64,000 nucleotides of DNA from the IMG/VR virus record IMGVR_UViG_3300037882_003154, positions 1 to 64,000 of that record; one strand, given 5' to 3'. Below the pieces are notes generated by a model that was not told where the DNA came from, made no database searches, and saw only the letters and a program-made list of their open reading frames with translations. The first letter of the stretch is position 1, and every line of letters begins with the position of its first letter. The DNA comes from a virus. A program made the translations under genes and the position numbers. This document shows positions 3,917 to 45,677 of the stretch, in pieces.

Positions 3917-4388
3917 ATACAAGGTGATAGTTGACACCAGGGAAAGGGCTGAATATAGATGGTGGTTTGATCCAGACGACTGTTGTGAGGGATCCGAACT
4001 ACTTAAACTAGACACCGGAGATTATAGTATAAAAGGGATGGAGCATTTGTTGTCAATAGACCGCAAAAGAAATACTGCGGAAATATCACAAAACATTGTA
4101 GATAGTAGGTTCTTTGATGAATTAGAAAGAATGCAGGTATTTAAATATAAGGCTATTGTTTGTGAGTTCAATATGTTTGCTATTATGAATTTTCCATATT
4201 CTAGTGGCATACCAAATAATAAATTAAAAAACATCAAGATTACATCTAAGCTTATATTATCTAAAATCGCCTACATACAAGCCCAATACAATATACCATT
4301 TATATTTTGTGACAACCGAGAATATGCAATGATATATTCACAAGCCTTTTTCAAGAAAGTATACGCTATTGAGTGTCAAAACGTATAA
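3909..4388 (+). CDS. ERCC4/XPF-type nuclease
   Basis: A 159-residue protein with the ERCC4 signature: VDTRER (D9, R11, E12), a TGDYSI segment (G37, D38, Y39) and DRKRNTAE (D51, R52, K53). The usual order is D-x-R-E, GDY, ERK; here the E of ERK is D. QNIVDSRFFDELERM completes the fold. Such nucleases cut branched or single/double-strand junction DNA with divalent metal. It overlaps the HNH gene by 8 bases and the large terminase by 20 bases. It may trim replication or recombination intermediates before packaging, or resolve branches that block the motor; this is inference from position. Confidence 0.75.
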   Translation: MNKYKVIVDTRERAEYRWWFDPDDCCEGSELLKLDTGDYSIKGMEHLLSIDRKRNTAEISQNIVDSRFFDELERMQVFKYKAIVCEFNMFAIMNFPYSSGIPNNKLKNIKITSKLILSKIAYIQAQYNIPFIFCDNREYAMIYSQAFFKKVYAIECQNV

Positions 4389-6390
4389 GCCAGATGAAGT
4401 AAAAAAGCTATTAGATTTATCTTGGCTTAATATAGACAATATATTTGACTATGCGGCTTCTCGCAGCAGAACTCATGGTGGTTTTTGGGATGGTGTAGAC
4501 GAAGATGTTCCCGAAAACCTTATTAACACCCTTTTAGACCCTGATTATTTTTACTTTACCGTAAAGATGATTCTTGGGCTCGAACTATTGCCATTTCAAT
4601 GTGTAATATTAAAAGAGCTTTGGACAAAGCCCTTCCCCATGCTTATAGCAAGCCGTGGATTCTCCAAAAGCTTTTTGCTTGGCGTATATGCTGTATTAAG
4701 GTGTGTATTGTGTCAGGGATCAAAGGTTGTTATTTGCGGGGCTGGCTTTAGACAGTCTAAAATAGTCTTTGAATACTGTGAGAGCTTTTGGTATAAGTCC
4801 GCTATATTAAGAGATATTTGTGGGGCTTCTAGCTCACAAGGACCAAAGCACGACACAGATAGATGGCATATGAAATTGGGAGAGAGCATTATAATTGCTA
4901 TACCAATAGGTTCTGGTGATAAGATTAGAGGCATTAGGGCTACACACCTAATCAGTGATGAATTTGCTGCTATCAACCCGGAGATTTATGAAAATGTCAT
5001 ACAAGGATTTGCTGCTGTTAGTGCTGATCCTGTTAGCAATGTTAAGGCTGAATCTAGGAAAGATACTGAAAAAAAACTTGGAATAGCAGATAATCTTTCT
5101 TTGATATCCAAGATGGGCAACCAGTCTATATTGTCGGGCACAACCTATTACACCTTCAATCATTTTTTTGCTTATTGGCGGAAGTACAAAAACATTATAG
5201 AGAGCAAAGGCGACAAGAATAAGCTCAAAGATATTTTTGCTGGTGATGTTCCAGATGAATTTAATTGGCAGGATTTTTCTGTTATGAGAATGCCATATAA
5301 TCTATTACCAAAAGGGTTCATGGATATTAAGCAGGTATATAGATCTAAGAGTATGCAGCATGTTAGTATGTTTAATCTAGAATATGGGGCTGTGTTCTCT
5401 GATGATAGCAATGGTTTTTATAAAAGATCATTAATAGAGAACTGTGTTGCCAATCACACAAATAATATTATACTTTCCTCTGGTAATATAGAATTCTCGG
5501 CAATGTTAAGGGGCTCGCCGGTAAAAGAATATATCTATGGTATTGACCCTGCTTCTGAAGCTGACAATTTTGCAATAGTAATCATAGAGATTAATAATGA
5601 CCACAGAAAGATAGTCTATTGTTGGACCGTAACTAGAAAGTTACACAAACAAAAAATAGTTAAGGATCCCAATATAGAGAGAGACTACTATGCTTATTGC
5701 TGTAGGAAAATTAGAGAATTAATGATGGTGTTTCCTTGTAAATACATTGGTCTCGACACACAAGGTGGCGGCATTGCCGTAGAAGAGTGCTTACATGACG
5801 AAGACAAAATAAAATATGAAATAGGTGAAAAGCCCATTTGGAAAATAATAGACCACGATAAGCCCGATCCAACGGATACTATGGCTGGAATGCATATTAT
5901 ACACAGGATTAATTTTGCTGATTCTGAATGGGTATCTGAGTCTAATCATGGTATGCGCAAAGATATGGAAGACAAATATCTATTGTTTCCAGAATTTGAT
6001 AATATTAGTATCGGGCTGGCTGCTGAACAGGATGCCTTAAATAATAGAACATACGACACACTAGAGGACTGTGTAATGGAGATAGAAGAGCTTAAAGATG
6101 AGCTTTCTTCTATCATACATAGTCAAACTGGTATAACAGGCAGAGATAAGTGGGATACGCCCGAAGTTAAAGTAGCTGGTGGCAAAAAGGGCAGACTAAG
6201 AAAAGATAGATACACCGCCCTATTAATTGCTAATTCTATAGCTAGAAGATTAGAGAGACAGATTAATTATCAGTTTCATGGTTCTCCCGGTGGCTTTGCC
6301 GCTAATGCAGGAAAAGATTGTAGTGGCAGACTATTCTATGGTCCTGAAGATTTTTGTCAAGCTATGCAGGAAGTGTACGGCTTAGACTAA
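4369..6390 (+). CDS. terL: Terminase large subunit
   Basis: A 673-residue DNA-packaging motor with a TTG start that overlaps the upstream nuclease gene. The ATPase half has a Walker A-like SRGFSKSF (95-102) and a Walker B segment HLISDEFA (D197-E198). The nuclease half begins near residue 388 with YGIDPASEADNFAI (D393), followed by LDTQGGG (D463), as in RNase H-like terminase nucleases. It cuts concatemeric DNA and pumps it into the prohead through the portal encoded next. The nearest visible relatives by motif are T4/large-phage type terminases. Downstream, 74 bases separate it from the portal gene, with a promoter-like motif between. Confidence 0.93.
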   Translation: MSVKTYKPDEVKKLLDLSWLNIDNIFDYAASRSRTHGGFWDGVDEDVPENLINTLLDPDYFYFTVKMILGLELLPFQCVILKELWTKPFPMLIASRGFSKSFLLGVYAVLRCVLCQGSKVVICGAGFRQSKIVFEYCESFWYKSAILRDICGASSSQGPKHDTDRWHMKLGESIIIAIPIGSGDKIRGIRATHLISDEFAAINPEIYENVIQGFAAVSADPVSNVKAESRKDTEKKLGIADNLSLISKMGNQSILSGTTYYTFNHFFAYWRKYKNIIESKGDKNKLKDIFAGDVPDEFNWQDFSVMRMPYNLLPKGFMDIKQVYRSKSMQHVSMFNLEYGAVFSDDSNGFYKRSLIENCVANHTNNIILSSGNIEFSAMLRGSPVKEYIYGIDPASEADNFAIVIIEINNDHRKIVYCWTVTRKLHKQKIVKDPNIERDYYAYCCRKIRELMMVFPCKYIGLDTQGGGIAVEECLHDEDKIKYEIGEKPIWKIIDHDKPDPTDTMAGMHIIHRINFADSEWVSESNHGMRKDMEDKYLLFPEFDNISIGLAAEQDALNNRTYDTLEDCVMEIEELKDELSSIIHSQTGITGRDKWDTPEVKVAGGKKGRLRKDRYTALLIANSIARRLERQINYQFHGSPGGFAANAGKDCSGRLFYGPEDFCQAMQEVYGLD

Positions 6391-6464: not shown

Positions 6465-8615
6465 ATGGCTGTAGCAAGAGCGATACAAATCAATCACGAC
6501 GATGGCTTTATTACATGGAATGATAAGCAGCCATCCACCAAAGATACTGCTATAGCCAAATTGTCACAGTCTTATGATGACAACAGACTAATATCTATGT
6601 CACAGAATGCCATTGGTAATAATTTTAGATCTTTTCGTGATATAGATACCAATGTTAATGCTAGAACCGGATTCACTAGAGACGACTATGATTTCTTTAG
6701 ACCAGAAGAGTCTACTACATTAACACAGAAAGAAATCATTCGCAAATGTATGATTGCATATCGTAAAGTCGGTCTTATCAAAAATGTTATAGATTTGATG
6801 GGTGATTTTGGTTGCCAGGGCATTAAATTAGTTCATGCCATACCCAAACAGCAAAGATTTTATAGAGAGTGGTTTAAAAAAGTTGGTGGTATTAATAGAT
6901 CAGAAAGGTTTTTAAATACATTATATAGGGCTGGCAATGTAATAGTCAAAAGATCTACTGCCAAGATCACACCAAGAAATTATGATAATATGTCTGCTGT
7001 TGGGGCGGATTTGGATATAGAAAAGAAGAAGTATCCAAACAACGAAATACCCTGGAGATATACGTTTTTTAGCCCATTACAAATAGAGATATTGGGCGAA
7101 GCCCTAGCCCAATTTGCCGGTAAGCCCAAATATGCACTAAAACTATCAAAGATGATACAGGATAGATTTAATGCTAGTTATAACTCTAATGATATAGAAA
7201 AAGAATTACTAAAGGATATACCCAAAGACATTAGAGAAAAGATTAGGGCTAAAAATAGTATTATTGAATTAGATCCAGAAAAAGTAAGGGTTTTTCATTA
7301 TAGAAAAGATGATTGGCAATCCTGGGCTGACCCATTGATTGGGGCTATATTACCAGATGTTATACTATTAGATAAAATGAAGTTGGCTGATTCAGCAGCC
7401 CTAGATGGCGTCATATCAAATGTAAGATTATGGCGGATAGGAGACCTGGAACAGAAAATATATCCCAGCAGAGCTATGATTAACAGACTCTCTAATATAT
7501 TGACCAACAATGTTGGTGGTGGATGCTTGGATTTGGTTTGGGGACCGGAGCTTGATTTTAAAGAATCTAGCACGAACGCCCATCAATTCTTGGGGTCTGA
7601 AAAGTACAAGCCAGTATTAAATGCAATATATGATGGGCTTGGCGTTCCACCAACTTTGACTGCCGCTGGGTCTGCTGGTGGCTTTACTAATAATATCATA
7701 TCTATTAAGACACTTATTGAAAGACTTGAGTATGGCAGAAATTTATTAATAGAGTTTTGGGACGAAGAGATCAAGATGGTTCAACAGGCTATGGGGTTCG
7801 CCAAACCAGCCCAAATATCCTTTGACCACATGACATTATCTGATGAAGCAGCCGAGAAAGCTCTTTTGCTTCAGTTACTAGACAGAGATGTTATTAGTGT
7901 TGAAGCTGTACTAGATAGATTTGATGAGATGCCGGAACTAGAAAAGAAAAGAATTAAAAGAGAACACAATTTAAGAGACAGTGAGTCGATGCCCAAGAAA
8001 GCAGGACCCTGGCACAATCCCTCCCTTATTGAAGATCTAACTAAGATATTCGCCCAAAGAGGATCGGTTACTCCTAGTGAGGTTGGTGTTGAACTTTTAG
8101 AGAGGAAGACTGGAGAAGAAACCCAACAGGAACAGCTTATGAAAATAGCCCAAACAAGGCAATCTGGTGGCACTGGTGGTAGACCCAAGAATTCCAAAGA
8201 TAGTTTCAAACGCAAAAGAACTGTGAAACCGAGGGCTGCCGCCAGCATTGTTTCGATAAGCGCCTGGGCGAAGAAAGCCCAAATCTCTATTGCTGATATA
8301 GTGATGCCCGCCCTTTTGGAATATTATGACAAAAAAAACTCAAGACAATTAACCGATGATGAGTCTAGGATATGCGAAGATATTAAATTTTCTGTTTTGT
8401 GTAGTATTAAGCCCTTTACTAAAATAGACCCAGAAATCATACAAACAACCCTAAATACTTGTGGTTCAAGAATATCCAAGGATATTGCGTCGGTGTATTC
8501 TAAGATGGTTGATAGATTTGCACAAGACACACAATCCGAACCAACTTTAGATGATATGAGAAATATACAGGTTCTAGTTTATTCTTTGTTTAATGAGGAA
8601 GATGAAAATGCCTAA
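6465..8615 (+). CDS. Portal protein
   Basis: A 716-residue protein directly after the large terminase and before the protease/scaffold, the standard portal position. The sequence is consistent with phage portals: an N-terminal wing, a long central helix-rich region (around MINRLSNILTNN), and VYDGLGVPPTLTAA-like text at ILNAIYDGLGVP (about 390-400), a typical portal segment. The portal forms the dodecameric ring through which DNA enters and leaves. It is long: a basic, low-complexity section (SGGTGGRPKNSKDSFKRKR, about 565-590) and a C-terminal helical domain extend beyond the usual core. The next gene starts inside its last codons. Confidence 0.85.
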   Translation: MAVARAIQINHDDGFITWNDKQPSTKDTAIAKLSQSYDDNRLISMSQNAIGNNFRSFRDIDTNVNARTGFTRDDYDFFRPEESTTLTQKEIIRKCMIAYRKVGLIKNVIDLMGDFGCQGIKLVHAIPKQQRFYREWFKKVGGINRSERFLNTLYRAGNVIVKRSTAKITPRNYDNMSAVGADLDIEKKKYPNNEIPWRYTFFSPLQIEILGEALAQFAGKPKYALKLSKMIQDRFNASYNSNDIEKELLKDIPKDIREKIRAKNSIIELDPEKVRVFHYRKDDWQSWADPLIGAILPDVILLDKMKLADSAALDGVISNVRLWRIGDLEQKIYPSRAMINRLSNILTNNVGGGCLDLVWGPELDFKESSTNAHQFLGSEKYKPVLNAIYDGLGVPPTLTAAGSAGGFTNNIISIKTLIERLEYGRNLLIEFWDEEIKMVQQAMGFAKPAQISFDHMTLSDEAAEKALLLQLLDRDVISVEAVLDRFDEMPELEKKRIKREHNLRDSESMPKKAGPWHNPSLIEDLTKIFAQRGSVTPSEVGVELLERKTGEETQQEQLMKIAQTRQSGGTGGRPKNSKDSFKRKRTVKPRAAASIVSISAWAKKAQISIADIVMPALLEYYDKKNSRQLTDDESRICEDIKFSVLCSIKPFTKIDPEIIQTTLNTCGSRISKDIASVYSKMVDRFAQDTQSEPTLDDMRNIQVLVYSLFNEEDENA

Positions 8616-8955
8616 AATTAATATTGAGGTCAACACGGATGATGAAACAATGGTCATTAAGATTGGTGAGGAAGTTGTAGAAGGGGCAAACTATGTCACT
8701 TTAGCATCACCAGATAGCAATGGATATTATGACAAGATGTATGTATATATCACTAAGACCGAAAAGAGTGAAGAGGGAATTGTAAAGTATACTTCATATA
8801 GCTTGGCTTCTTCAAAAAATAAAGATCTAGCAACGGTAGCATCCAAGTCTTATAAAGGATTTTTAGAATCTGTCAGTCAGAATTCTCCAATAGTAGAACG
8901 TCTTGGCGATTTTGTGTCTAGTAGATTAAAAGACAGGGCTAAAAGAAGGCACTAG
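8608..8955 (+). CDS. Small head-module protein of unknown function
   Basis: About 115 residues. Three in-frame ATGs exist (8593, 8602, 8608). The last is preferred because GAGGAA at 8595-8600 is seven bases upstream; the portal stop overlaps it. The first half looks like beta-strands (INIEVNTDDETMVIKIGEEVV) and the C-terminus is basic (SSRLKDRAKRRH). It lies between portal and protease, a place often used by small capsid or portal accessory proteins. No family is recognised. Confidence 0.65.
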   Translation: MPKINIEVNTDDETMVIKIGEEVVEGANYVTLASPDSNGYYDKMYVYITKTEKSEEGIVKYTSYSLASSKNKDLATVASKSYKGFLESVSQNSPIVERLGDFVSSRLKDRAKRRH

Positions 8956-8957
8956 TA

Positions 8958-10424
8958 ATGCAGATATTTGAAGAAGAGCGCGCTTTTGCTAATTTAATGT
9001 CGGATGATAAGGCGATAGCCTCATTCAATGTTAAATTAAAGAACATACCAGACAATCATATCCAAAAGATATTAGATCATAGTAAGTCTAATGCTTTGGC
9101 TCATTATAAAGACAAAGATCTATTTCATGTCCCGACCGTATTAGTGAGTGTTGGATGTAATGATAACGATGATGTATTTACCAAAGAAGAAACATGGAAG
9201 TCTCGCAAAACACCAGAAGATAAGCCCTTTAATTTAGAACACAACGAAGCCGATATTATAGGGCACATTATCAATAATTATGTCGTTGATGAAAATTTTG
9301 ATGTAATAGCAGATGATACTTCTATAGATCAGTTGCCCAATAAATTTCATATTATCACGCCATCTGTTATTTATACACATTGGCGAAACGATAAATTAAA
9401 AGAAAGATCTGACAATCTCATAGCCGAGATTGGTGAGGGAATATGGTGTGTTTCTATGGAAGCCCATTTTACTGACTTTGGGTATATGGTATTTGAGGAA
9501 GATGAATCTTATAGGGCTGTTGGAAGAAGTCAAGAGACTGCTTACTTAACAAAATATCTGAGGGCTTATGGTGGCTCTGGCAAGTATGATGGTAAAAAAA
9601 TAGCTAGGGTTCTAAAGAACATAACTTTTTCTGGCAAAGGATTGGTCAAGAATCCAGCTAATCCAGAAAGTGTTATACTAAATGGTTCAGAAAAAAATAC
9701 TAGCAAAGCAGAGGTTGGTGTATTAAATACTAAGACAAATGATAGTGAAATTAAAACGCAAGGTGAAATAATGGCTAACGAAAACCAAGATAAAGAGATT
9801 GCAGAACTTAAAGCCAAAGTCGAGCTTTTGTCAACCGAACGAGATGAGGCTAAAGCTAAAGCCGCACAATCGGCTGAGCAGCTTGTTAAAGACAAGATTG
9901 GTTCTTTGGAAGCTTCTATCAAAGTTCGTGATGATAGTATAACAGAGCTCAAGACCAAAATTGAATCTCTCGAAAAAGACAGTGTTGCAAGCAAGAAGTT
10001 AGCCGACGAAGCAGTTGCAAATCTTGATAAGGCTTCTAAGGAACTAGAAGCTATCAAAGTAGAGAAGGTCAAGGCTGAGCGAATTGTGTCACTAGAAAAG
10101 CTGGGGTTTGCGACAACCGAAGCTACCGAAAAATATGAAAAGTTTGCCGCTTTATCAAATGAAATGTTTGCTGAAGTTGTAGCTTCTCTTGCCGCGCTCA
10201 AACCAACCGAAACAAAGAAAGTGGATGCCACAGCTAAGAAAGATGAAAAAGTATTAGAGTCTGCTAAAGCTGATAAAGAGCCCCCACTTAATGATGTGAA
10301 TTCTGACAACGAAGACACTAATAAAGATGTGGTTGCGGCTATATCCAATCGCATTGGTGAGTTGTTCAAGAAAAATAGAAAAAACAAGAAAAGTGTCCGA
10401 AACGACGAAGAGGGAGATAACTAA
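8958..10424 (+). CDS. Prohead protease fused to scaffold
   Basis: A 488-residue protein with two parts. Residues 50-250 look like a phage prohead serine protease: FNLEHNEADIIGHI with H95 and WCVSMEAHF with S166 fit the His-Ser arrangement of the U9/U35 protease families. From residue 272 on the protein is a charged coiled coil (AELKAKVELLSTERDEAKAKA and so on to about 410), as expected for a scaffold, and it ends in a basic RKNKKSVR tail that may bind the capsid shell. An in-frame ATG at 9771 with its own RBS could give the scaffold alone. Protease and scaffold together drive capsid assembly and are then cleaved away. Confidence 0.82.
   Translation: MQIFEEERAFANLMSDDKAIASFNVKLKNIPDNHIQKILDHSKSNALAHYKDKDLFHVPTVLVSVGCNDNDDVFTKEETWKSRKTPEDKPFNLEHNEADIIGHIINNYVVDENFDVIADDTSIDQLPNKFHIITPSVIYTHWRNDKLKERSDNLIAEIGEGIWCVSMEAHFTDFGYMVFEEDESYRAVGRSQETAYLTKYLRAYGGSGKYDGKKIARVLKNITFSGKGLVKNPANPESVILNGSEKNTSKAEVGVLNTKTNDSEIKTQGEIMANENQDKEIAELKAKVELLSTERDEAKAKAAQSAEQLVKDKIGSLEASIKVRDDSITELKTKIESLEKDSVASKKLADEAVANLDKASKELEAIKVEKVKAERIVSLEKLGFATTEATEKYEKFAALSNEMFAEVVASLAALKPTETKKVDATAKKDEKVLESAKADKEPPLNDVNSDNEDTNKDVVAAISNRIGELFKKNRKNKKSVRNDEEGDN
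9771..10424 (+). CDS. Probable nested scaffold from an internal start
   Basis: ATG at 9771 is in frame with the protease gene (codon 272) and is preceded by AGGTGA at 9761-9766, well spaced. The product would be 217 residues starting MANENQDKEIAEL, almost pure coiled coil. Phage lambda makes its scaffold Nu3 in this way from inside the protease gene C. The start coincides exactly with the border between the two domains, which supports use of this site. Expression is not shown. Confidence 0.5.
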   Translation: MANENQDKEIAELKAKVELLSTERDEAKAKAAQSAEQLVKDKIGSLEASIKVRDDSITELKTKIESLEKDSVASKKLADEAVANLDKASKELEAIKVEKVKAERIVSLEKLGFATTEATEKYEKFAALSNEMFAEVVASLAALKPTETKKVDATAKKDEKVLESAKADKEPPLNDVNSDNEDTNKDVVAAISNRIGELFKKNRKNKKSVRNDEEGDN

Positions 10425-10906
10425 TGGCTCTTAAAACAGATAGGCATGAAGTAATAACCGACATTTCATTTTTTATGAATGAAACTGCCGAACGCGGTGG
10501 TGTTGCCGTTCTTTCCACCGTTGGTTCCGGTGGAGCAATGGATCAGTCCCAGGCATTAGTTACATATGCTGCTACTCCTGCTGGTAGACAACCGGTGGGT
10601 ATTTTGTTGAATGACATGGTCAATATTGATCAGACACGACAGCACATCAATCAGCACAAGAATGAAGTACAACAGGGCGGCAAAGTTACGATACTAAGAG
10701 CTGGTCATGTTGTAACTAATAGGATTGCCGGTGGCACAGTTGTATATGCTGGCGCTAAAGCCTATTTGGGTCCTTCGGGATTCCTTCAAATTACCCAAGG
10801 TACTGCGAGCGGTCTGCCATATGAGCCTTCCAATCCAACCGTTGGTTATTTCATGTCATCGAGAGACGAAGATGGCTATGCAAAAGTTGCAATTCAGTTG
10901 AGCTAA
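10424..10906 (+). CDS. Capsid decoration protein candidate
   Basis: A 160-residue, glycine- and valine-rich, beta-type protein (GGVAVLSTVGSGGAMD, then VTILRAGHVVTNRIAGGTVV). It begins at TAATG directly after the scaffold and precedes the major capsid gene, the usual place of head-stabilising or decoration proteins such as lambda gpD. It uses many CGN arginine and GCT alanine codons, like the capsid gene, which suggests high expression. The alternative is a minor head protein. Confidence 0.65.
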   Translation: MALKTDRHEVITDISFFMNETAERGGVAVLSTVGSGGAMDQSQALVTYAATPAGRQPVGILLNDMVNIDQTRQHINQHKNEVQQGGKVTILRAGHVVTNRIAGGTVVYAGAKAYLGPSGFLQITQGTASGLPYEPSNPTVGYFMSSRDEDGYAKVAIQLS

Positions 10907-10971
10907 TAACAAGTAACTATTAGAGTAAAAGTAAACAAGTAAAAAAAGAGAGAAAACCGAGGGAGTATAAA

Positions 10972-11973
10972 ATGGCTAATGATAAGCAAGACCAAGAATT
11001 GATGTCAAAACTTTTGCAACAGACTGTCTGTGCAAATGCTTCTCAGGCATCTGAGGCTGCCAAAAATTTTGCTATGGCTATTAGTCTGCCTTTAAGACAA
11101 GAGCTTTTGGCTGGTGATATAACCTATGGCATCTTTGAAGTTGAACAGCTTGCTCCGGGTCAAACTCCAGAATATCCTTTGGATTTCTTGGCTCCTGGTA
11201 CCGCCAAAGACTTCGTAGCCTATACCAACCCTCAACATGGCTATATTCCAGAACGAACGGTTGAAGGCGACTACGTTATGGTGCCAACGTATGGAGTCGC
11301 TAACAGTATAGATTGGCTTTTACGATACTCACGAGACGCTAGATGGAATATTGTCGAACGAGCCCTTGATGTCCTTCGTGCTGGTTTCGTAAAGAAAATT
11401 AATGATGATGCATGGCATGTCCTGATGGCGGCTGGTGTTGATCGAAACTTTATTGTTTGGGATGCCGACGCAAATGTTGGTCAGTTTACTAAACGGCTTG
11501 TAAGCCTAATGAAGTCGGTAATGCGCCGAAATGGTGGTGGAAATTCCACAAGCATGAATCGTGGTATGCTTACCGATGTTTTCCTTTCTCCTGAGAATAA
11601 GGAAGATGTTAGAAACTGGGGTATTGACATTGTTGATGACTTTACTCGGCGAGAAATTTTCTTGGCTGAAGATGGAGCTATCAGCAGAATTTGGGGTGTG
11701 AATCTAGTTGATGTGGATGAATTTGGTGAATCACAGGAATATCAAGATTTCTTCACGGGCTCTTTGGGTGGTTCTCTTGCCTCTGGTGATGTGGAGTTGC
11801 TAGTTGGTTTGGATTTGAGAAACCGAGACTCCTTCGTTATGCCAATGCGAGAGCAGGTACAGTTGTTCCAAGATCCAACACTACATCGCAGACAACGCGA
11901 CGGTTACTATGGATGGGCGGAACTTGGGTTGGCGGCATTAGATAATCGCCGTGTCTGCCTTGGGTCTTCGTAG
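10972..11973 (+). CDS. Major capsid protein
   Basis: A 333-residue protein with a strong RBS (GAGGGAGTATAAA before ATG). It has the expected position after protease/scaffold and decoration protein, and the content of an HK97-fold shell protein: a helical N-terminus, an APGTAKDFVAY / GYIPERTVEGDYV extended stretch, a long spine-helix region (NIVERALDVLRAGFVKKIND) and a late beta domain (GDVELLVGLDLRNRDSFVMP). Codon use differs from most of the window: arginine is mostly CGN rather than AGA/AGG, as expected for the most abundant phage protein. A perfect intrinsic terminator follows 43 bases after the stop. No sequence-level family call is possible by eye. Confidence 0.85.
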   Translation: MANDKQDQELMSKLLQQTVCANASQASEAAKNFAMAISLPLRQELLAGDITYGIFEVEQLAPGQTPEYPLDFLAPGTAKDFVAYTNPQHGYIPERTVEGDYVMVPTYGVANSIDWLLRYSRDARWNIVERALDVLRAGFVKKINDDAWHVLMAAGVDRNFIVWDADANVGQFTKRLVSLMKSVMRRNGGGNSTSMNRGMLTDVFLSPENKEDVRNWGIDIVDDFTRREIFLAEDGAISRIWGVNLVDVDEFGESQEYQDFFTGSLGGSLASGDVELLVGLDLRNRDSFVMPMREQVQLFQDPTLHRRQRDGYYGWAELGLAALDNRRVCLGSS

Positions 11974-12016
11974 TACGTATATCATACTACATTTTAGTTA
12001 GTCATCTTTTTAAAAT

Positions 12017-12044
12017 CCCCGATATAATATATCGGGGTTTTTTT
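12017..12044 (+). terminator. Intrinsic terminator after the capsid gene
   Basis: CCCCGATAT-AAT-ATATCGGGG followed by seven T. The stem is perfect, the loop is short, and the U-tract is immediate. It ends the head transcript just before a new late-promoter-like motif at 12055. Confidence 0.95.
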
Positions 12045-12054
12045 ATAGCCGTGG

Positions 12055-12067
12055 GTGTATTTATACA
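12055..12067 (+). promoter_or_regulatory. Late-promoter-like motif after the capsid terminator
   Basis: GGGTGTATTTATACAC (12053-12068) starts 49 bases upstream of the ATG at 12104 and directly follows the terminator, so it is well placed to start a new transcription unit. Confidence 0.7.
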
Positions 12068-12103
12068 CAGCAAACAAATTTCATATCATTTAGGAACAAT
12101 AAT

Positions 12104-12577
12104 ATGGGGCTATCACCACAGCAAATATCATTACTAAAAACCGACATTAATAATGATCCTGCTCTTTCTGGACTGCCAAATACACAAGACGACAATCTAT
12201 TCATAGCCCAGCAGTATGCCCTAGAAAAAGTCCCCAAATTTTGGGTGTGGCGTACAAATGTACCAACAGATGAAATAATAAACAATGGATTCATATGGTC
12301 TACTGTTGATGGTATGACGGTTGGCAAGTCTAGAATTTGGGACTGGATGAAATCGGTCGGATATATTAATCCATCCAAAACCAACGTGCGGCAGGGTCTT
12401 GGTGATGCTTTCGGTGTTGGGTCGGCTATGGCTAATGCTATCACTCCACATCTCAGTAGAGCCGCCAATAGAATAGAAGCCCTATTTGCTACCGGCGTTG
12501 GTACATCAGGAACCCCAGGAACTATGACCCTTGAAGGAACAATCAATTACTTAGATGTTCAATCTGCTAGGAACTAA
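12104..12577 (+). CDS. Conserved phage structural-module protein
   Basis: A 157-residue protein of a family common in tailed phages. It has an N-terminal helix (LSPQQISLLKTDINND), the pattern VWRTNVPTDEI-NNGFIW, then GKSRIWDWMKS, NPSKTNVRQGL, and RAANRIEALFATGVGT near the end. Members are generally unannotated and encoded near capsid or tail genes. It is the first gene after the capsid terminator and has its own promoter-like motif. It may be a minor head or joining protein, but its role is not known. Confidence 0.7.
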   Translation: MGLSPQQISLLKTDINNDPALSGLPNTQDDNLFIAQQYALEKVPKFWVWRTNVPTDEIINNGFIWSTVDGMTVGKSRIWDWMKSVGYINPSKTNVRQGLGDAFGVGSAMANAITPHLSRAANRIEALFATGVGTSGTPGTMTLEGTINYLDVQSARN

Positions 12578-12579
12578 TT

Positions 12580-13338
12580 GTGTTTGATAAGGAAAAAGAC
12601 CCAACACTAGTGTTGGCTGGAATTTGCTATACCTGTGAAAAATACCACGAATATACCGTGCCCATAGATCAAATGGGGCACAGTATGATGGAGTGGGGGC
12701 AAAAACACCTTGGGCACAAAATTGAATTTCATAGCCCCAAGAGATTTATACCAGCCAAATTAGACGATAGCATCTTCCAAGAACATAATTACACGCCTTG
12801 GTGGTTGGGTGAATTTAGTCCCAATGCCGACCTAAAAACCTCTTATACCGCTAGTACCGGATATACCATATCTCCACACTCTACGCCATTGGCTAGTAGT
12901 AGCTCACTCACTCTTGGTAGAAGTAGCGTAGCTGTTAATAACTCGGCTGCAAATGTATTATACTTAGATTATTTAATAGGCGGATTTAGCACAACTAGAA
13001 CAGCGCCAACAGCAGGGCGCATGGAGCTTTGGGCATATTCTTCTTTTAATGATACGCCATTGTATCCTGATAGAATCAGTGGGATTGACGAAGACTTAAC
13101 ACTAACAAGCTCAGATATTAAAAATGCTGGTATGTCATTTATTAACTTGTGTGTTACTGACACCACGAGTGCTCGCAGATATCCGTTTAGAGCAACATCT
13201 CTTTCTTCTTTGTTTAATTCATTTGCGGTTCCTAAATATCATGGGCTCTTTTTAACCCACAATACGGTGGCGGCTCTTAATCCAACTGGAGCTACACATG
13301 CATTTTATTATACCCCGTGTTATTTGTCGGTGGCATAG
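12580..13338 (+). CDS. Minor virion protein with a zinc-finger-like N-terminus
   Basis: A 252-residue protein with a GTG start two bases after the previous gene. Residues 1-60 are distinct: C17-x2-C20 with several histidines, possibly metal binding. The rest (about 90-252) resembles a beta-rich domain found in many phage virion proteins, with the order VLYLDYLIGGFSTT, GRMELWAYSSFNDTPLYPD, NLCVTDTTSARRYPF and KYHGLFLTHNTVAALNP. Such proteins are usually decoration or tail accessory proteins. It overlaps the LamG gene by one base (TAGTG). Confidence 0.6.
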   Translation: MFDKEKDPTLVLAGICYTCEKYHEYTVPIDQMGHSMMEWGQKHLGHKIEFHSPKRFIPAKLDDSIFQEHNYTPWWLGEFSPNADLKTSYTASTGYTISPHSTPLASSSSLTLGRSSVAVNNSAANVLYLDYLIGGFSTTRTAPTAGRMELWAYSSFNDTPLYPDRISGIDEDLTLTSSDIKNAGMSFINLCVTDTTSARRYPFRATSLSSLFNSFAVPKYHGLFLTHNTVAALNPTGATHAFYYTPCYLSVA

Positions 13339-39960: not shown

Positions 39961-41786
39961 TGGCTTATCCAGCAGATCGTGGTAAATTTGGATATGCCGA
40001 ATCTTCGGGTGTATTCTACTCGGAATATGAGCCCACAAGACTGTTGTATCACACATACTTTAGGGGACCTGCTGGTGAAAACCCATCTTTATTATATAAC
40101 GGACCAGTTTCAATCAACAATTCCTATCGTGTAACCAACTATGATATTGGTTCCCACATATTATATTCAGATAGTTTTCCTCATTCAATAGCATCAAGAA
40201 ATATATTTTGGTATGATTATGATGCATATCAACAAAACAAACTATCACTACCATCTATAGGCGGATCTGGAATCAATGTATTATCTAGTGGTGTTACAGC
40301 CTTTTTTAGAAAATATCCAATATTATGGTCATATAGCGATCTAACTAGTAGTGGGCAGTTTACCAGATTTTTTACAAAAAGTCTTGGGCTTCCTTTTTCT
40401 GACATATCTTTGCCATCTGGTGATAGACCACTCTCTGTTACAATACCAACACTATATATAGTTTCTGGTAGTGTTCCACGAGACATATCCAATTCTGAAC
40501 TTGCAATTATGCCCTTTTACCAAATGGCTGATGTAATTTGGCAGTGCCACAATCATATAGATGGAATGTACAGAAACCCCAAGATCAATGCTGCACATCC
40601 ATGTGGTGAAGATTGGATCAATCCAGAGTCATCTGCTAGTAGTCAGACTGCAACACTAAAGAGCAGAGTGGCTACGGAGACATATGTTATTAGTGGCGTC
40701 CCAATACCACAATTGACCAAAGAATATGGTCTGCAATTTAATAACTTAACACTTAAGGCAACTGGATTTATAGGACCCCAAAACCACTTACTATATGCAT
40801 CTGGTCAAATTCCTGGTTCTGGTTATATGCCATATCTTCAAATGGCTGAGCAGTGTTGTTTTGAAAATATCAGGGACCACAATTTCATTACCAAAGTAAC
40901 TAATAGCAGTCCTGTCGTTCCGCCAACATTTAATCAGGTTAGTGGAATTGGTGATTGGGGATATAGTAGTCTTGGACTATCTTCCGGCATATTTTTAGAC
41001 ACAGCTAAAATAGTGGGGTCTAATAAGATATTGCCTAATGGCGTGGTCAAACAGTGGTTATTGGCGACAGAAATACCCGACAGTGATATATTGACAAGTT
41101 GTGTGAGAGCCAAGTTTTTTGGTGGCTTGGGCAATTCTAGTTTTGATATAGTGTGTTCTGGAAGCCAACCCACTATTTCTTTAAATGCCACAACACATTT
41201 CCTTAGAACCGATCCAGTTTTTCTTACACAGACCATTACCACAGAAACAACACCAATAAAATTAATACCAATATTGTATACACAGGTCAAGATAGAGCAC
41301 AATGCCCCGGTTACAGTTGGAGGAAGCATATGCACTATGGGTGATGCTACCGGTCTGCGATTTGGGGTTGCAAATACCAATAAAGCTAATAGATTGGGCG
41401 TATCTGTTAGTGGGTCAACATTTTATAGTATAGCCAATGCAATGTTTAGTAAGCTTGGTGATCCAATATCACCATCAATACTACATAATATTCAGCAGCA
41501 TCCATTCAGGCACAACACTCAAAGCTTCTTTGGTACGCCGGTCACACTGGTTATAAATAACAAAATATTTTGGGCTATAGCTAGGTCGGTTGAACCAACC
41601 GGCACCACAACAGGAACAGCCCGAACATTTACAGAATTAACAATACCGCCAAATACTATGGTATTGAACCCATCTAGTATATACATCAAGATCAATGGTA
41701 TAGATGTTCCATGCAGTAGACTAGACGGCATTAATATACCAGGAAGTTCAATTTTTGATGTGTTCCAATACTCTGCTAGTCCCTAG
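39960..41786 (+). CDS. Terminal tail / baseplate protein
   Basis: A 608-residue protein, the last plus-strand gene. Aromatic- and glycine-rich with many YS/SG turns; no family is recognised. Ends at 41786, overlapping the end of the minus-strand nuclease gene by 11 bases (convergent). Its place at the end of the tail block fits a receptor-binding or lower baseplate component; that is inference. Confidence 0.55.
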   Translation: MAYPADRGKFGYAESSGVFYSEYEPTRLLYHTYFRGPAGENPSLLYNGPVSINNSYRVTNYDIGSHILYSDSFPHSIASRNIFWYDYDAYQQNKLSLPSIGGSGINVLSSGVTAFFRKYPILWSYSDLTSSGQFTRFFTKSLGLPFSDISLPSGDRPLSVTIPTLYIVSGSVPRDISNSELAIMPFYQMADVIWQCHNHIDGMYRNPKINAAHPCGEDWINPESSASSQTATLKSRVATETYVISGVPIPQLTKEYGLQFNNLTLKATGFIGPQNHLLYASGQIPGSGYMPYLQMAEQCCFENIRDHNFITKVTNSSPVVPPTFNQVSGIGDWGYSSLGLSSGIFLDTAKIVGSNKILPNGVVKQWLLATEIPDSDILTSCVRAKFFGGLGNSSFDIVCSGSQPTISLNATTHFLRTDPVFLTQTITTETTPIKLIPILYTQVKIEHNAPVTVGGSICTMGDATGLRFGVANTNKANRLGVSVSGSTFYSIANAMFSKLGDPISPSILHNIQQHPFRHNTQSFFGTPVTLVINNKIFWAIARSVEPTGTTTGTARTFTELTIPPNTMVLNPSSIYIKINGIDVPCSRLDGINIPGSSIFDVFQYSASP

Positions 41787-42180
41787 GTCCAATGCCTTTG
41801 TAGGGCATAGCCAGCCCCAAATTTAACAACCTTTCATTAAGATTGATCCAGTTATTATCTTGGTCGAAAAAATAAACTGTAGCAAGGTATCTTCGCCACT
41901 TTTCCCTTTTCATCTTGTAGGGTGTTTTGACCAACATTTCACTCTCTACGAATATTCTTGAGGCATTCTCACATAGAGTAAAGAATATCTCATAAGCCTC
42001 TTTGCCCTTTTCTGTTGACATATTTTGTGTATTTAGCCCAGATAGCCTAAATTCAACGTCGGTTTTGATACTGTATCCTAGATCGACACTGGCAACAAAT
42101 GTGTCACCATCAATGATCCTGTTGATCTGGACTTCTCGAATATAGTTGTCTAGTGGGGCTAAGACTATGTTATTGGTCAT
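41776..42180 (-). CDS. Staphylococcal nuclease-like protein
   Basis: A 134-residue protein of the SNase/thermonuclease fold: VQINRIIDGDTFVASVDLGY opens the OB-type domain, FRLSGLNTQN and TEKGKEAYEIFFTLC follow, and KTPYKMKREKWRRYLATVYFF and LNERLLNLGLA close it. The catalytic D-G-D and R residues of the family are present in IIDGDTF and FRLSG. These are calcium-dependent DNases. It is the last minus-strand gene and converges on the tail genes. No secretion signal is visible, so it likely acts in the cell, perhaps on host DNA or in recombination. Confidence 0.85.
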   Translation of the reverse strand: MTNNIVLAPLDNYIREVQINRIIDGDTFVASVDLGYSIKTDVEFRLSGLNTQNMSTEKGKEAYEIFFTLCENASRIFVESEMLVKTPYKMKREKWRRYLATVYFFDQDNNWINLNERLLNLGLAMPYKGIGPRD

Positions 42181-42272
42181 AAAATGCCATTGGTTTGCAA
42201 TAGGATTGGTTCTGGCTTAGGGCTGGACGGAGTTTGTGCTGGAATACCACGAAAACATTGTATATTATTCAT
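42177..42272 (-). CDS. Possible 31-residue small protein
   Basis: A short ORF (MNNIQCFRGIPAQTP to LQTNGIL) whose stop overlaps the start of the nuclease gene (TTATGACC). It has no clear RBS. It would sit immediately downstream of the RNA terminator. Could be chance. Confidence 0.25.
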   Translation of the reverse strand: MNNIQCFRGIPAQTPSSPKPEPILLQTNGIL

Positions 42273-42287
42273 TAGGGCTAATTTAAA

Positions 42288-42346
42288 ATAAAAAAAATCC
42301 CACAACCAAGAAAGTCAACAACCACCTTCAATCTTGGCTGTGGGAT
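42288..42346 (-). terminator. Intrinsic terminator of the large RNA region
   Basis: Minus strand: ATCCCACAGCCAAGA (42346-42332), a 20-base loop, TCTTGGTTGTGGGAT (42311-42297), then TTTTTTT. The stem is 15 pairs with one G-U. The U-tract is only on the minus strand, so it terminates transcripts coming from 43 kb. Confidence 0.92.
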
Positions 42347-43006
42347 CTAGCAAAAGGGACGCTACGCTAACAAAATTTTATTTCACCCTTATCATTGGGT
42401 GCATTTTTCACTCACTGTCTTACTGATACTATTGATACTTTAGGAACTATTCGTGACTATTATCCTACGAGCCCCCCTCTTACTATTTTGTAGATATATT
42501 TCATTCGGGACTTATACCTAGTGTTTCTTATCACCGACCGTTCTATGAAAGATATTTTTAATCCACAAACGGCACGTTTGTGGGCGTACCAAACCCATTT
42601 GCAGGGGTTTAGTAAAAGACAAGCCGCAATTATCATTTAATTGTAGGCTGACCGGAAGTATTTTTTTTACTACGCACACTCCCTTCAACCACGTAGTTTG
42701 GCTTTATTATCCTAGATCGGTTATCGAATCTATAAATAGGAGAACACCAAAAATCTTGCGTTTACCAATTATGATATTTTTTTGTGCAAAATGCGTAGGC
42801 TGGTAAACTTCTAGGACCTTTGCCAAATCAGGTGGCTATATTTTCACGAATCATCTTCAGTGTTATTATATCCCAGGTGAATACAAAAAATCATACTTTT
42901 TCTTGTCTAAGTCGGATAATATTTTTTAACTCTTTGAGAAAACACGCCAAAGATTTTTAAAACAGGTAGAGTTTCGCGGCGAATGCCGCATAGCTGAATA
43001 AACAAT
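42290..43006 (-). ncRNA. Large structured noncoding RNA candidate
   Basis: A 717-base region with no plausible gene on either strand, although genes here are packed. On the minus strand it contains many self-complementary segments: GCGGC-ATTC-GCCGC (42976-42989), GTTTACCA / TGGTAAAC (42760-42808), CCACAAAC / GTTTGTGG with a five-base loop (42563-42583), AAACCC / GGGTTT (42591-42610), AGCC and CAATT paired with AATTG and GGCT (42622-42649), and CACCC / GGGTG (42384-42401). It ends in a perfect terminator. It fits the size and phage setting of GOLLD and ROOL class RNAs, but I cannot match a consensus. The 5' end is not defined. Group I or II introns and RNase P were considered and no signature was found. 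Confidence 0.6.
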
Positions 43007-43327
43007 CTAGTGTGAATCTAGGGACTTTCGGTAAGTTATGCAATTGTGCAAAAATTCATCCATCGGTGGTACATATATTTTTTCATCTACATATAAACCG
43101 ATGGCTTTGGCTAGCTCCATGCGATTTTGCCAACACAGGTCGTGTCCATCCTTGGACAAATAGTCCTTGACACTTTTAACCAGATTATTATATTTGTGTT
43201 TGTTGATGGTTACTTCTTTAATATCTTGTAGTCTACATTTTAAGTAGCGAACTCGCCTTTTATAAAGATAATAAAGTTTGATATACAGCAAACCAAGGGT
43301 GATGATTATGATCCGTTCAATTGTCAT
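43007..43327 (-). CDS. Small membrane-anchored protein
   Basis: A 106-residue protein. Residues 4-22 (ERIIIITLGLLYIKLYYLY) form one hydrophobic membrane segment, followed by positive residues (KRRVRYLK). The soluble part (25-106) is helical and unrecognised. It has a good RBS (GGAGTAATTATG). It lies directly upstream of the RNA candidate on the same strand. Function unknown. Confidence 0.6.
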   Translation of the reverse strand: MTIERIIIITLGLLYIKLYYLYKRRVRYLKCRLQDIKEVTINKHKYNNLVKSVKDYLSKDGHDLCWQNRMELAKAIGLYVDEKIYVPPMDEFLHNCITYRKSLDSH

Positions 43328-43969: not shown

Positions 43970-44785
43970 TTAACCTTTCTCACTAGAATTTTCAACTTCT
44001 AACAAATGCCCAGGTATTTCTTTTTCTCCTCTAAAATACTCACCCAGTCTTTTAATCATAGCAGTAGACACGTCATATGGCACCTCCTTGATATCATTAT
44101 ATGCTCTCTTACCACTATTAATAAATGCACTAACATTTATATTACATCTTTGGCACAAGAGTGTTATGCCTAAAACTCTGCCCTCATCTATTAGGGCTTC
44201 GTTGTCAAACAGAGATCTGTCTTGTGCAGCCTGAATGTCACTCTCTTCTCTAACAGACTTTTCTTCTGCACTAATGTTCTTAATACCAAGCGCTTTTCTC
44301 AAGGCTCTGCCCTCTGCTCTGGTCTCTGCCGTTGCTGATGGATGCTGATTATATGGGGATATTGTGTTTTCAGACCAACAATCTGCGACAGCCATAATAG
44401 TTTTGTATAATTGTATGCCGCTATCATCAAATGACCTTAGAGCAAATACTATGGTATGTTCAACCGACGCCCTATTACCATTTTCTTTTGTGGGCGCTTG
44501 TACTATTTTGGTCTTAGATTCGGCTATTTGCCCAATAAGCTTTTGGGCTACTCTGCGTAATCCGTCGGTTTTTGGATTATCACCTTGTAGTTCGTCTTTT
44601 GCGAACAAAGACATCACATAATCAGACCAATCTGGATCCGTATAGCTTTCTAGATATGTCCGTTCTTTGGTTGTGGTCTCATTGTTGTTTTGCAAATCAC
44701 CAACAAGATATCCATCATCTACCGACAATATCTTCTGGTCCCCTAATGTATCCTGGTCGTTTGGTTCTGATTTTTTTCTTGGCAT
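43970..44785 (-). CDS. Possible ssDNA-annealing recombination protein
   Basis: A 271-residue protein. A central segment HPSATAETRAEGRALRKALG resembles the conserved helix of Rad52/Erf-type single-strand annealing proteins of phages, in which R residues bind DNA. The N-terminus is acidic and low complexity; the C-terminus is helical. Adjacent zinc-ribbon and nuclease genes support a recombination role. Confidence is limited because the other family blocks are not obvious. Confidence 0.4.
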   Translation of the reverse strand: MPRKKSEPNDQDTLGDQKILSVDDGYLVGDLQNNNETTTKERTYLESYTDPDWSDYVMSLFAKDELQGDNPKTDGLRRVAQKLIGQIAESKTKIVQAPTKENGNRASVEHTIVFALRSFDDSGIQLYKTIMAVADCWSENTISPYNQHPSATAETRAEGRALRKALGIKNISAEEKSVREESDIQAAQDRSLFDNEALIDEGRVLGITLLCQRCNINVSAFINSGKRAYNDIKEVPYDVSTAMIKRLGEYFRGEKEIPGHLLEVENSSEKG

Positions 44786-45677
44786 TGTTCGGTTTTCCGG
44801 TTGTGGTATCTTTCCTAATACGAAGTGGCTTGTTTTCTATTATAAGTTCTCGTATTGGAGAAGGGTTTAATATACTGATATCAGGGTGCTGACCTGAATA
44901 TGGCGTCGGTGTGATTTCAAGATAAGTGGGCTCTTTGGGCTTTGTCTTGAATTTTTCCAGGGTCTCCAAAAGAATTTTAGAAACCTCTCGACAGTATTTA
45001 TTCGATTTTGTATCACCGAAGTGTCTCAATCTTATTATACTCAGTCCCTTGCCCAAAAGCAATCCCATTTTCTGAATATCGGCTTTTCGTGTTTTGGCTA
45101 GGGCTTCTTCGCCCCAAACCGGATAAAAGTGCGACGGACCATCCACTTCAATAGCGACACCCAGGTTTTGGACGAAAATATCAATCTCCAGTTTTTCATT
45201 AGCCAAAATTTTATTATAATGAAATACCACATTGTGACCCTCGTTTTTTAATAGTCGGAATAGCATGTGCTCCATTTTAGATCCAAGCTTTGATGCTTTC
45301 CTAATGCCATCTATGCCCATCTTGATGAAATCTTCTTTTTCTTTTTTTGTTCTTTTGTTCCATACTTTTTTGGCTTTTTCTACATGCACCTGTTTTTGCT
45401 CTTCGGACTTTTCGTGCCAAACCCTATAATTAGATTCGCTGATAGCCAGCTTTGTGCTTTCAGAGGACTCTTTTCCTTTGGTGGGGTGTTCTTTTGAGCC
45501 GGTCTCATAAGCATTAGCAAGAGCTTCGCCTCTAGTTCTTTTTGGTATACCGAACTTTTCTAGGGCTCTGTTAATTTGTTCTGGAAAAAGCCCCATTTCT
45601 TTAGCTATACTAGACGTTGATCTTTTATTTTGTGCATATTCTTTTTGCAGATATGCCTTGGTTAGTTCTTTACTCAT
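44715..45677 (-). CDS. Vsr/EDxHD-type endonuclease with HTH domain
   Basis: A 320-residue protein. The N-terminal helix-turn-helix (residues 1-50, STSSIAKEMGLFPEQINRALEKFG) resembles DNA-binding domains attached to homing endonucleases. The segment ANEKLEIDIFVQ, IEVDGPSHFYPVWGEEALAKT and LLLGKGLSIIRLRHFGD is an EDxHD/Vsr-like (PD-(D/E)xK) core with D, E-x-D and H residues in order. The tail is very basic. This type of free-standing endonuclease spreads by homing and often sits between phage genes. Overlaps the next gene by 71 bases. Confidence 0.7.
   Translation of the reverse strand: MSKELTKAYLQKEYAQNKRSTSSIAKEMGLFPEQINRALEKFGIPKRTRGEALANAYETGSKEHPTKGKESSESTKLAISESNYRVWHEKSEEQKQVHVEKAKKVWNKRTKKEKEDFIKMGIDGIRKASKLGSKMEHMLFRLLKNEGHNVVFHYNKILANEKLEIDIFVQNLGVAIEVDGPSHFYPVWGEEALAKTRKADIQKMGLLLGKGLSIIRLRHFGDTKSNKYCREVSKILLETLEKFKTKPKEPTYLEITPTPYSGQHPDISILNPSPIRELIIENKPLRIRKDTTTGKPNNAKKKIRTKRPGYIRGPEDIVGR

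Follow-up and report, generated by a model that had tools for sequence, protein, structure and literature searches.

A 64,000-nt stretch of an uncultured phage genome (here called the window; bases 1-64000 of a source record of 133,464 nt) contains a gene-free gap for which the best explanation, judged somewhat better than even, is a noncoding RNA that stands alone, is about 560 nt long (perhaps up to about 710 nt) and falls in none of the catalogued families. The RNA would be transcribed leftward from near position 42858 to an intrinsic terminator at 42347-42296, and is predicted to fold into three separate domains, the first two of which would probably touch through a loop-loop contact. On balance, the gap more probably than not specifies a genuine structured RNA that stands alone and measures about 560 nt.

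The gap and its genomic setting

When genes are called mechanically across the full record, the gap (826 nt, at 42181-43006, with flanking ORF boundaries at 42180 and 43007) exceeds all other gaps and is approximately threefold larger than the second largest, the runners-up being 262 and 250 nt; the preliminary description had rightly pointed to a long gene-free interval in a gene-packed phage. It is located at the meeting point of two genome arms. The rightward one, which is structural, ends at 41786, and from 41776 onwards nearly all genes are leftward as far as the record extends. The order on the minus strand is a 106-aa ORF (43327-43007), the gap, the terminator, and then a nuclease-family gene (42180-41776). 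Another gene of a homing or HNH-like endonuclease family (44715-45677) is found near the RNA, and its position is kept in kin phages that have no such RNA. The features of the locus, by position in the window, are as follows.

41776-42180, minus strand: nuclease-family gene, the downstream neighbour (PHROG 452 endonuclease, E 3.6e-18)
42296-42347, minus strand: intrinsic terminator, a 16-bp stem followed by U8 (from sequence and MFE fold)
42297-42858, minus strand: likeliest span of the RNA (about 562 nt), its putative 5' end lying just past the TATAAT and its 3' end at that of the terminator stem
42348-42485, minus strand: predicted domain 3, an 18-bp interrupted closing stem around hairpin 42401-42384
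42563-42683, minus strand: predicted domain 2, four consecutive hairpins (z -3.6; 0 of 60 shuffles as good)
42670-42798, minus strand: predicted loop-loop pairing of domains 1 and 2, CUACGC (42798-42793) with GCGUAG (42675-42670)
42687-42837, minus strand: predicted domain 1, a long stem with interruptions that carries hairpins 42808-42760 and 42750-42717 (z -4.8; 0 of 60 shuffles as good)
42865-42870, minus strand: perfect TATAAT (-10-like), with a -35-like ATGATT (3 of 6) 18 nt upstream
42863-43006, minus strand: 5' flank of the gap, which may be a leader, a promoter region or a less structured 5' domain of an RNA of about 710 nt
43007-43327, minus strand: 106-aa ORF, the upstream neighbour (weakly positive hexamer score)

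Folding, architecture and ends of the proposed RNA

The minus strand of region 42280-43010 has a minimum free energy (MFE) of -202 kcal/mol, compared to a shuffle mean of -167.5 (z -5.7), whereas the plus strand of the same region is less stable (-171.5 kcal/mol, z -4.0). Relative to dinucleotide shuffles, the whole region on the minus strand reaches a z of -4.6 to -7.5, varying by run, and still -4.3 to -4.7 when the terminator is removed; 26 control windows from the same phage have a mean z of -1.3 and a minimum of -3.6. The excess stability is confined to about 42297-42862: segment 42348-42862 has a z of -4.0, equalled by none of 60 shuffles, and a scan with 130-nt tiles agrees, with low tiles between 42290 and about 42750, whereas the 148 nt of the 5' part (42863-43010) are at chance level (z -0.7). 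Stability thus goes beyond both dinucleotide shuffles and local controls for 42297-42862, but not for 42863-43010. A low z is no proof by itself, since some gene-free gaps of kin phages have whole-length z values of -5 to -6.8, usually by way of a single terminator-like tile. Three gaps of a 143-kb kin phage (G091: 130557-131095, 134830-135455 and 136888-137321) have low folding energy and no Rfam match, and are candidates for structured RNAs or terminator clusters. What is counted in favour of an RNA at the present locus is that each of three disjoint domains has a z between -3.6 and -4.8 and is equalled by none of 60 shuffles.

Pair probabilities are 0.9-0.98 in the main helices of domain 1 and 0.97-0.99 in the closing stem of domain 3 (42485-42467/42367-42348), a domain that was tested as 42348-42490 (z -4.2, 0 of 60 shuffles as good). 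Domain 2 consists of hairpins 42683-42654, 42653-42617, 42614-42587 and 42583-42563. All of the hairpins listed in the preliminary description (42989-42976, which belongs to the 5' flank, 42808-42760, 42614-42587, 42583-42563 and 42401-42384, together with 42648-42623, which falls within a larger stem) can be read in the sequence and recur in the MFE fold, most of them with a pair probability of at least 0.9. Two long-range stems (43009-42996/42506-42491 and 42913-42873/42521-42509) are unsupported despite their presence in the MFE fold, because shuffling 42863-43010 alone yields as good a total fold in 5 of 60 trials, and shuffling the 42491-42560 arm alone does so in 15 of 60. In the folding model, a loop-loop contact likely joins domains 1 and 2: the CUACGC/GCGUAG pairing is the sole match between unpaired segments of the MFE fold that reaches 5 bp and includes 2 or more G-C pairs, a threshold chosen after the pairing was seen, and a 6-bp loop complement with 4 G-C pairs arises in 2 of 120 shuffles.

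The terminator at which the minus strand ends, originally described as 15 pairs with a U-tract, has a stem of 16 bp by the present count; the automated terminator scan misses 42347-42296 solely because the loop is longer than 8 nt. It should work leftward only, because the opposite strand has no T-run. The perfect TATAAT adjoins the 5' border of the structured core and would place the start of transcription near 42858. The -35 element is weak (ATGATT only, with no strong -35 found), and TATAAT occurs in the record at a density of 0.0011 per base and strand, corresponding to a chance of about 3% in a 30-nt stretch. As a promoter of the RNA, this motif is suggestive only; the 5' end may alternatively be generated by processing of an upstream message. 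An RNA of about 560 nt is preferred to one of about 710 nt because the structural signal stops at about 42862, with the TATAAT just 5' of this point, and the original proposal that the RNA fills the whole interval of about 700 nt gives way to a start near 42858.

The location of the region would also suit the structured 3' untranslated end of a long leftward operon, protecting or terminating the message with no need of a promoter or an independent role. About 90 kb of minus-strand genes terminate here, the region lies directly past a stop codon (43007-43009) and ahead of a strong terminator, and no consensus promoter with a good -35 is found upstream. For such a purpose, however, the terminator hairpin would suffice, and about 420 more structured nucleotides in three domains would be superfluous; the candidate resembles such an untranslated region in being situated with a terminator at the end of a transcription arm, but is far longer and more structured than termination requires. 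Furthermore, kin phages with a like organisation of arms need just 0-215 nt, and a gene on the same strand, that of the nuclease, follows beyond the terminator. An untranslated end of this kind is considered unlikely, and a stand-alone RNA remains the preferred reading.

Kin phages and the search for homologues

IMG/VR contains about 600 or more relatives of the terminase of this phage, the best with approximately 50% identity, and no close cultured relative was found. The terminase (4369-6390) and a likely capsid protein (10972-11973) place the phage in a highly abundant group whose cultured relatives are very few; the capsid call is based on a 20% match to the major head protein of Bacillus phage G, and no relatives were found when genome contigs were searched with the capsid protein. 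The gene order is common to long kin records, and of 80 kin loci, 75 show the homologous convergent junction, where the gap never exceeds 215 nt (range 0-215). Because so little sequence occupies these 75 junctions, the stretch is an addition peculiar to its lineage and not a general spacer. The RNA, the nuclease and the 106-aa ORF are jointly missing from the syntenic kin junction.

This joint absence is also what a decayed insertion remnant (of a mobile element, an intron or a gene) would leave, had it come in along with these two neighbours and since become functionless, and insertions are commonly marked by endonuclease genes. Such an origin is nevertheless quite unlikely: Pfam and PHROGs reveal no coding relic in any frame, intron families are unmatched, and drift would hardly have preserved three domains with z below -3.5 and an intact terminator.

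No homologue of the region was found by blastn in INPHARED and PLSDB, where the matches at E 2-10 were 23-29 nt long and nearly all in annotated genes, and blastn against about 140 kin phage records returned merely 14-34-nt matches. A match to 42449-42407 that recurs among kin sits in long ORFs of those inspected. The kin contig whose capsid protein is most similar (G138) has a hairpin-like match to 42614-42587, likewise within an ORF and therefore attributed to chance. Single-sequence covariance models of the three domains detected no second copy in 49-50 long kin records and the fetched loci, and a scan of genome contigs for an exact 22-mer, an overly strict demand, gave zero matches. A close relative of the nuclease (41776-42180) was not found among the viral contigs searched, and the nuclease, the 106-aa ORF and a 271-aa ORF, each used as sole bait, retrieved no relatives. 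These homologue searches possibly left out the records closest to the window; blastn and single-sequence models have little power when an RNA evolves fast, and exclude near homologues rather than distant ones. As a single sequence for which no homologue was found, the RNA is an orphan candidate and not yet a class, although a homologue may well turn up, since the lineage has hundreds of relatives in public metagenomes.

Gaps of 383-740 nt upstream of a small-terminase homologue in nine kin phages (G019:94346-94880, G020:219-649, G021:84292-85031, G022:933-1421, G023:1886-2385, G024:11507-12007, G025:5269-5651, G026:323-859 and G027:33596-34121) were at first taken as the counterpart of the RNA. 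They contain strong TTGACA/TATAAT promoters, have little structure (z +1.6 to -3.1) and have no blastn match to the RNA, and are therefore assigned as promoter or regulatory regions instead. These nine gene-free gaps show partial sequence conservation and probably serve the lineage as its early control region. No counterpart to it was found in the source phage, the record of which begins just upstream of the terminase genes.

Known RNA families, coding potential and significance

At gathering cut-offs, no Rfam family matched anywhere in the record, inside or outside the window, group I and group II introns, tmRNA, RNase P, CRISPR and other families included, and RF01998 (group II intron domain) gave nothing over the cut-off; in the gap region, permissive filters and E up to 10 added nothing beyond chance. 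The best chance match had E 0.11, far below its cut-off. The preliminary description had named GOLLD, ROOL, OLE and introns as the families to compare, and none of them matched: GOLLD (RF02032) is absent from the whole record at E up to 10, no ROOL match was obtained with the gathering cut-off for the window, or for the gap region with E as high as 10, and the covariance model of OLE is unmatched in the window or gap region. The absence of a nearby tRNA holds for the entire record, and, given this and the absent GOLLD or ROOL match, the suggestion that a new class is possible stands. A kin phage of 154 kb (L131, G021:40001-60000, 6933-13038) has a tmRNA gene and several tRNAs, whereas the source phage has neither.

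ROOL RNAs have a conserved P1-P19 fold, form an octameric RNA cage and are often located near tRNA islands, and GOLLD RNAs have a conserved 3' region, with tRNA nearby or within a linker. ROOL RNA (RF03087), from phages or prophages, has several domains, loop-loop contacts and a length of about 570-660 nt, and both GOLLD and ROOL form RNA-only cages (PMC12286853); OLE is found in bacteria, mostly extremophile or anaerobic Bacillota (PMC12054373). The candidate is like ROOL in size, multi-domain fold and predicted loop-loop contact, but it has no sequence-structure match, no tRNA island and one representative. It is like GOLLD as a large, stand-alone phage RNA with a structured 3' part, but it is unmatched at E up to 10, has no nearby or embedded tRNA, and is shorter. 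OLE, an ornate noncoding RNA of about 600 nt, is of similar size, but is bacterial, whereas the candidate comes from a phage and has no Rfam match. The size, the phage location, the stand-alone terminator and the likely loop-loop contact would all be in keeping with a GOLLD, ROOL or OLE RNA too divergent for the Rfam models; however, this is very improbable, considering that permissive filters gave zero matches to E 10, with GOLLD missing record-wide, that the record contains no tRNA, and that ROOL is unmatched in 49 kin records (a scan in which control genomes were equally silent).

The longest ORF within the gap with an ATG, GTG or TTG start is 58 aa. Hexamer scores, trained on the large genes of the phage itself, are negative in all six frames (-0.46 to -0.71), whereas the large genes reach +0.65 and small genes, nearby or elsewhere, +0.20 to +0.51; small ORFs within the gap are nearly all negative, with the exception of one 39-aa ORF (+0.09). 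Six-frame translations read through stop codons had zero matches in Pfam and PHROGs, and by these hexamer scores, ORF lengths and scans the gap contains no credible gene, as originally proposed. An unrecognised short coding region is hardly credible: the two overlapping ORFs of 56-58 aa at 42460-42688 that might represent one score -0.12 and -0.22, whereas genuine small genes score +0.2 to +0.5, and they coincide with the strongest hairpins.

Because of its size, isolation, own terminator and multi-domain fold, the RNA is a candidate work-alike of GOLLD and ROOL. By analogy with these two, it may be a stable, abundant structural RNA that is made in infection and acts as a scaffold or self-assembling particle; provided that the RNA is real, a scaffold role is a tentative possibility, and no pointer to a partner or function was found in the sequence. 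It is doubtful that this RNA is the first known example of a novel class of large phage RNAs that stand alone, are unrelated to GOLLD, ROOL and OLE, and form an ordered particle or scaffold, here carried by one lineage of a widely distributed, uncultured phage group. To our knowledge, the functions of GOLLD and ROOL are an open question, and very few large ornate RNAs are known. If the proposal is true, an RNA unrelated to these but equal in size, and from a different group of phages, would point to more than one origin of large structural RNAs among phages, and would offer an independent case for probing what large phage RNAs do.
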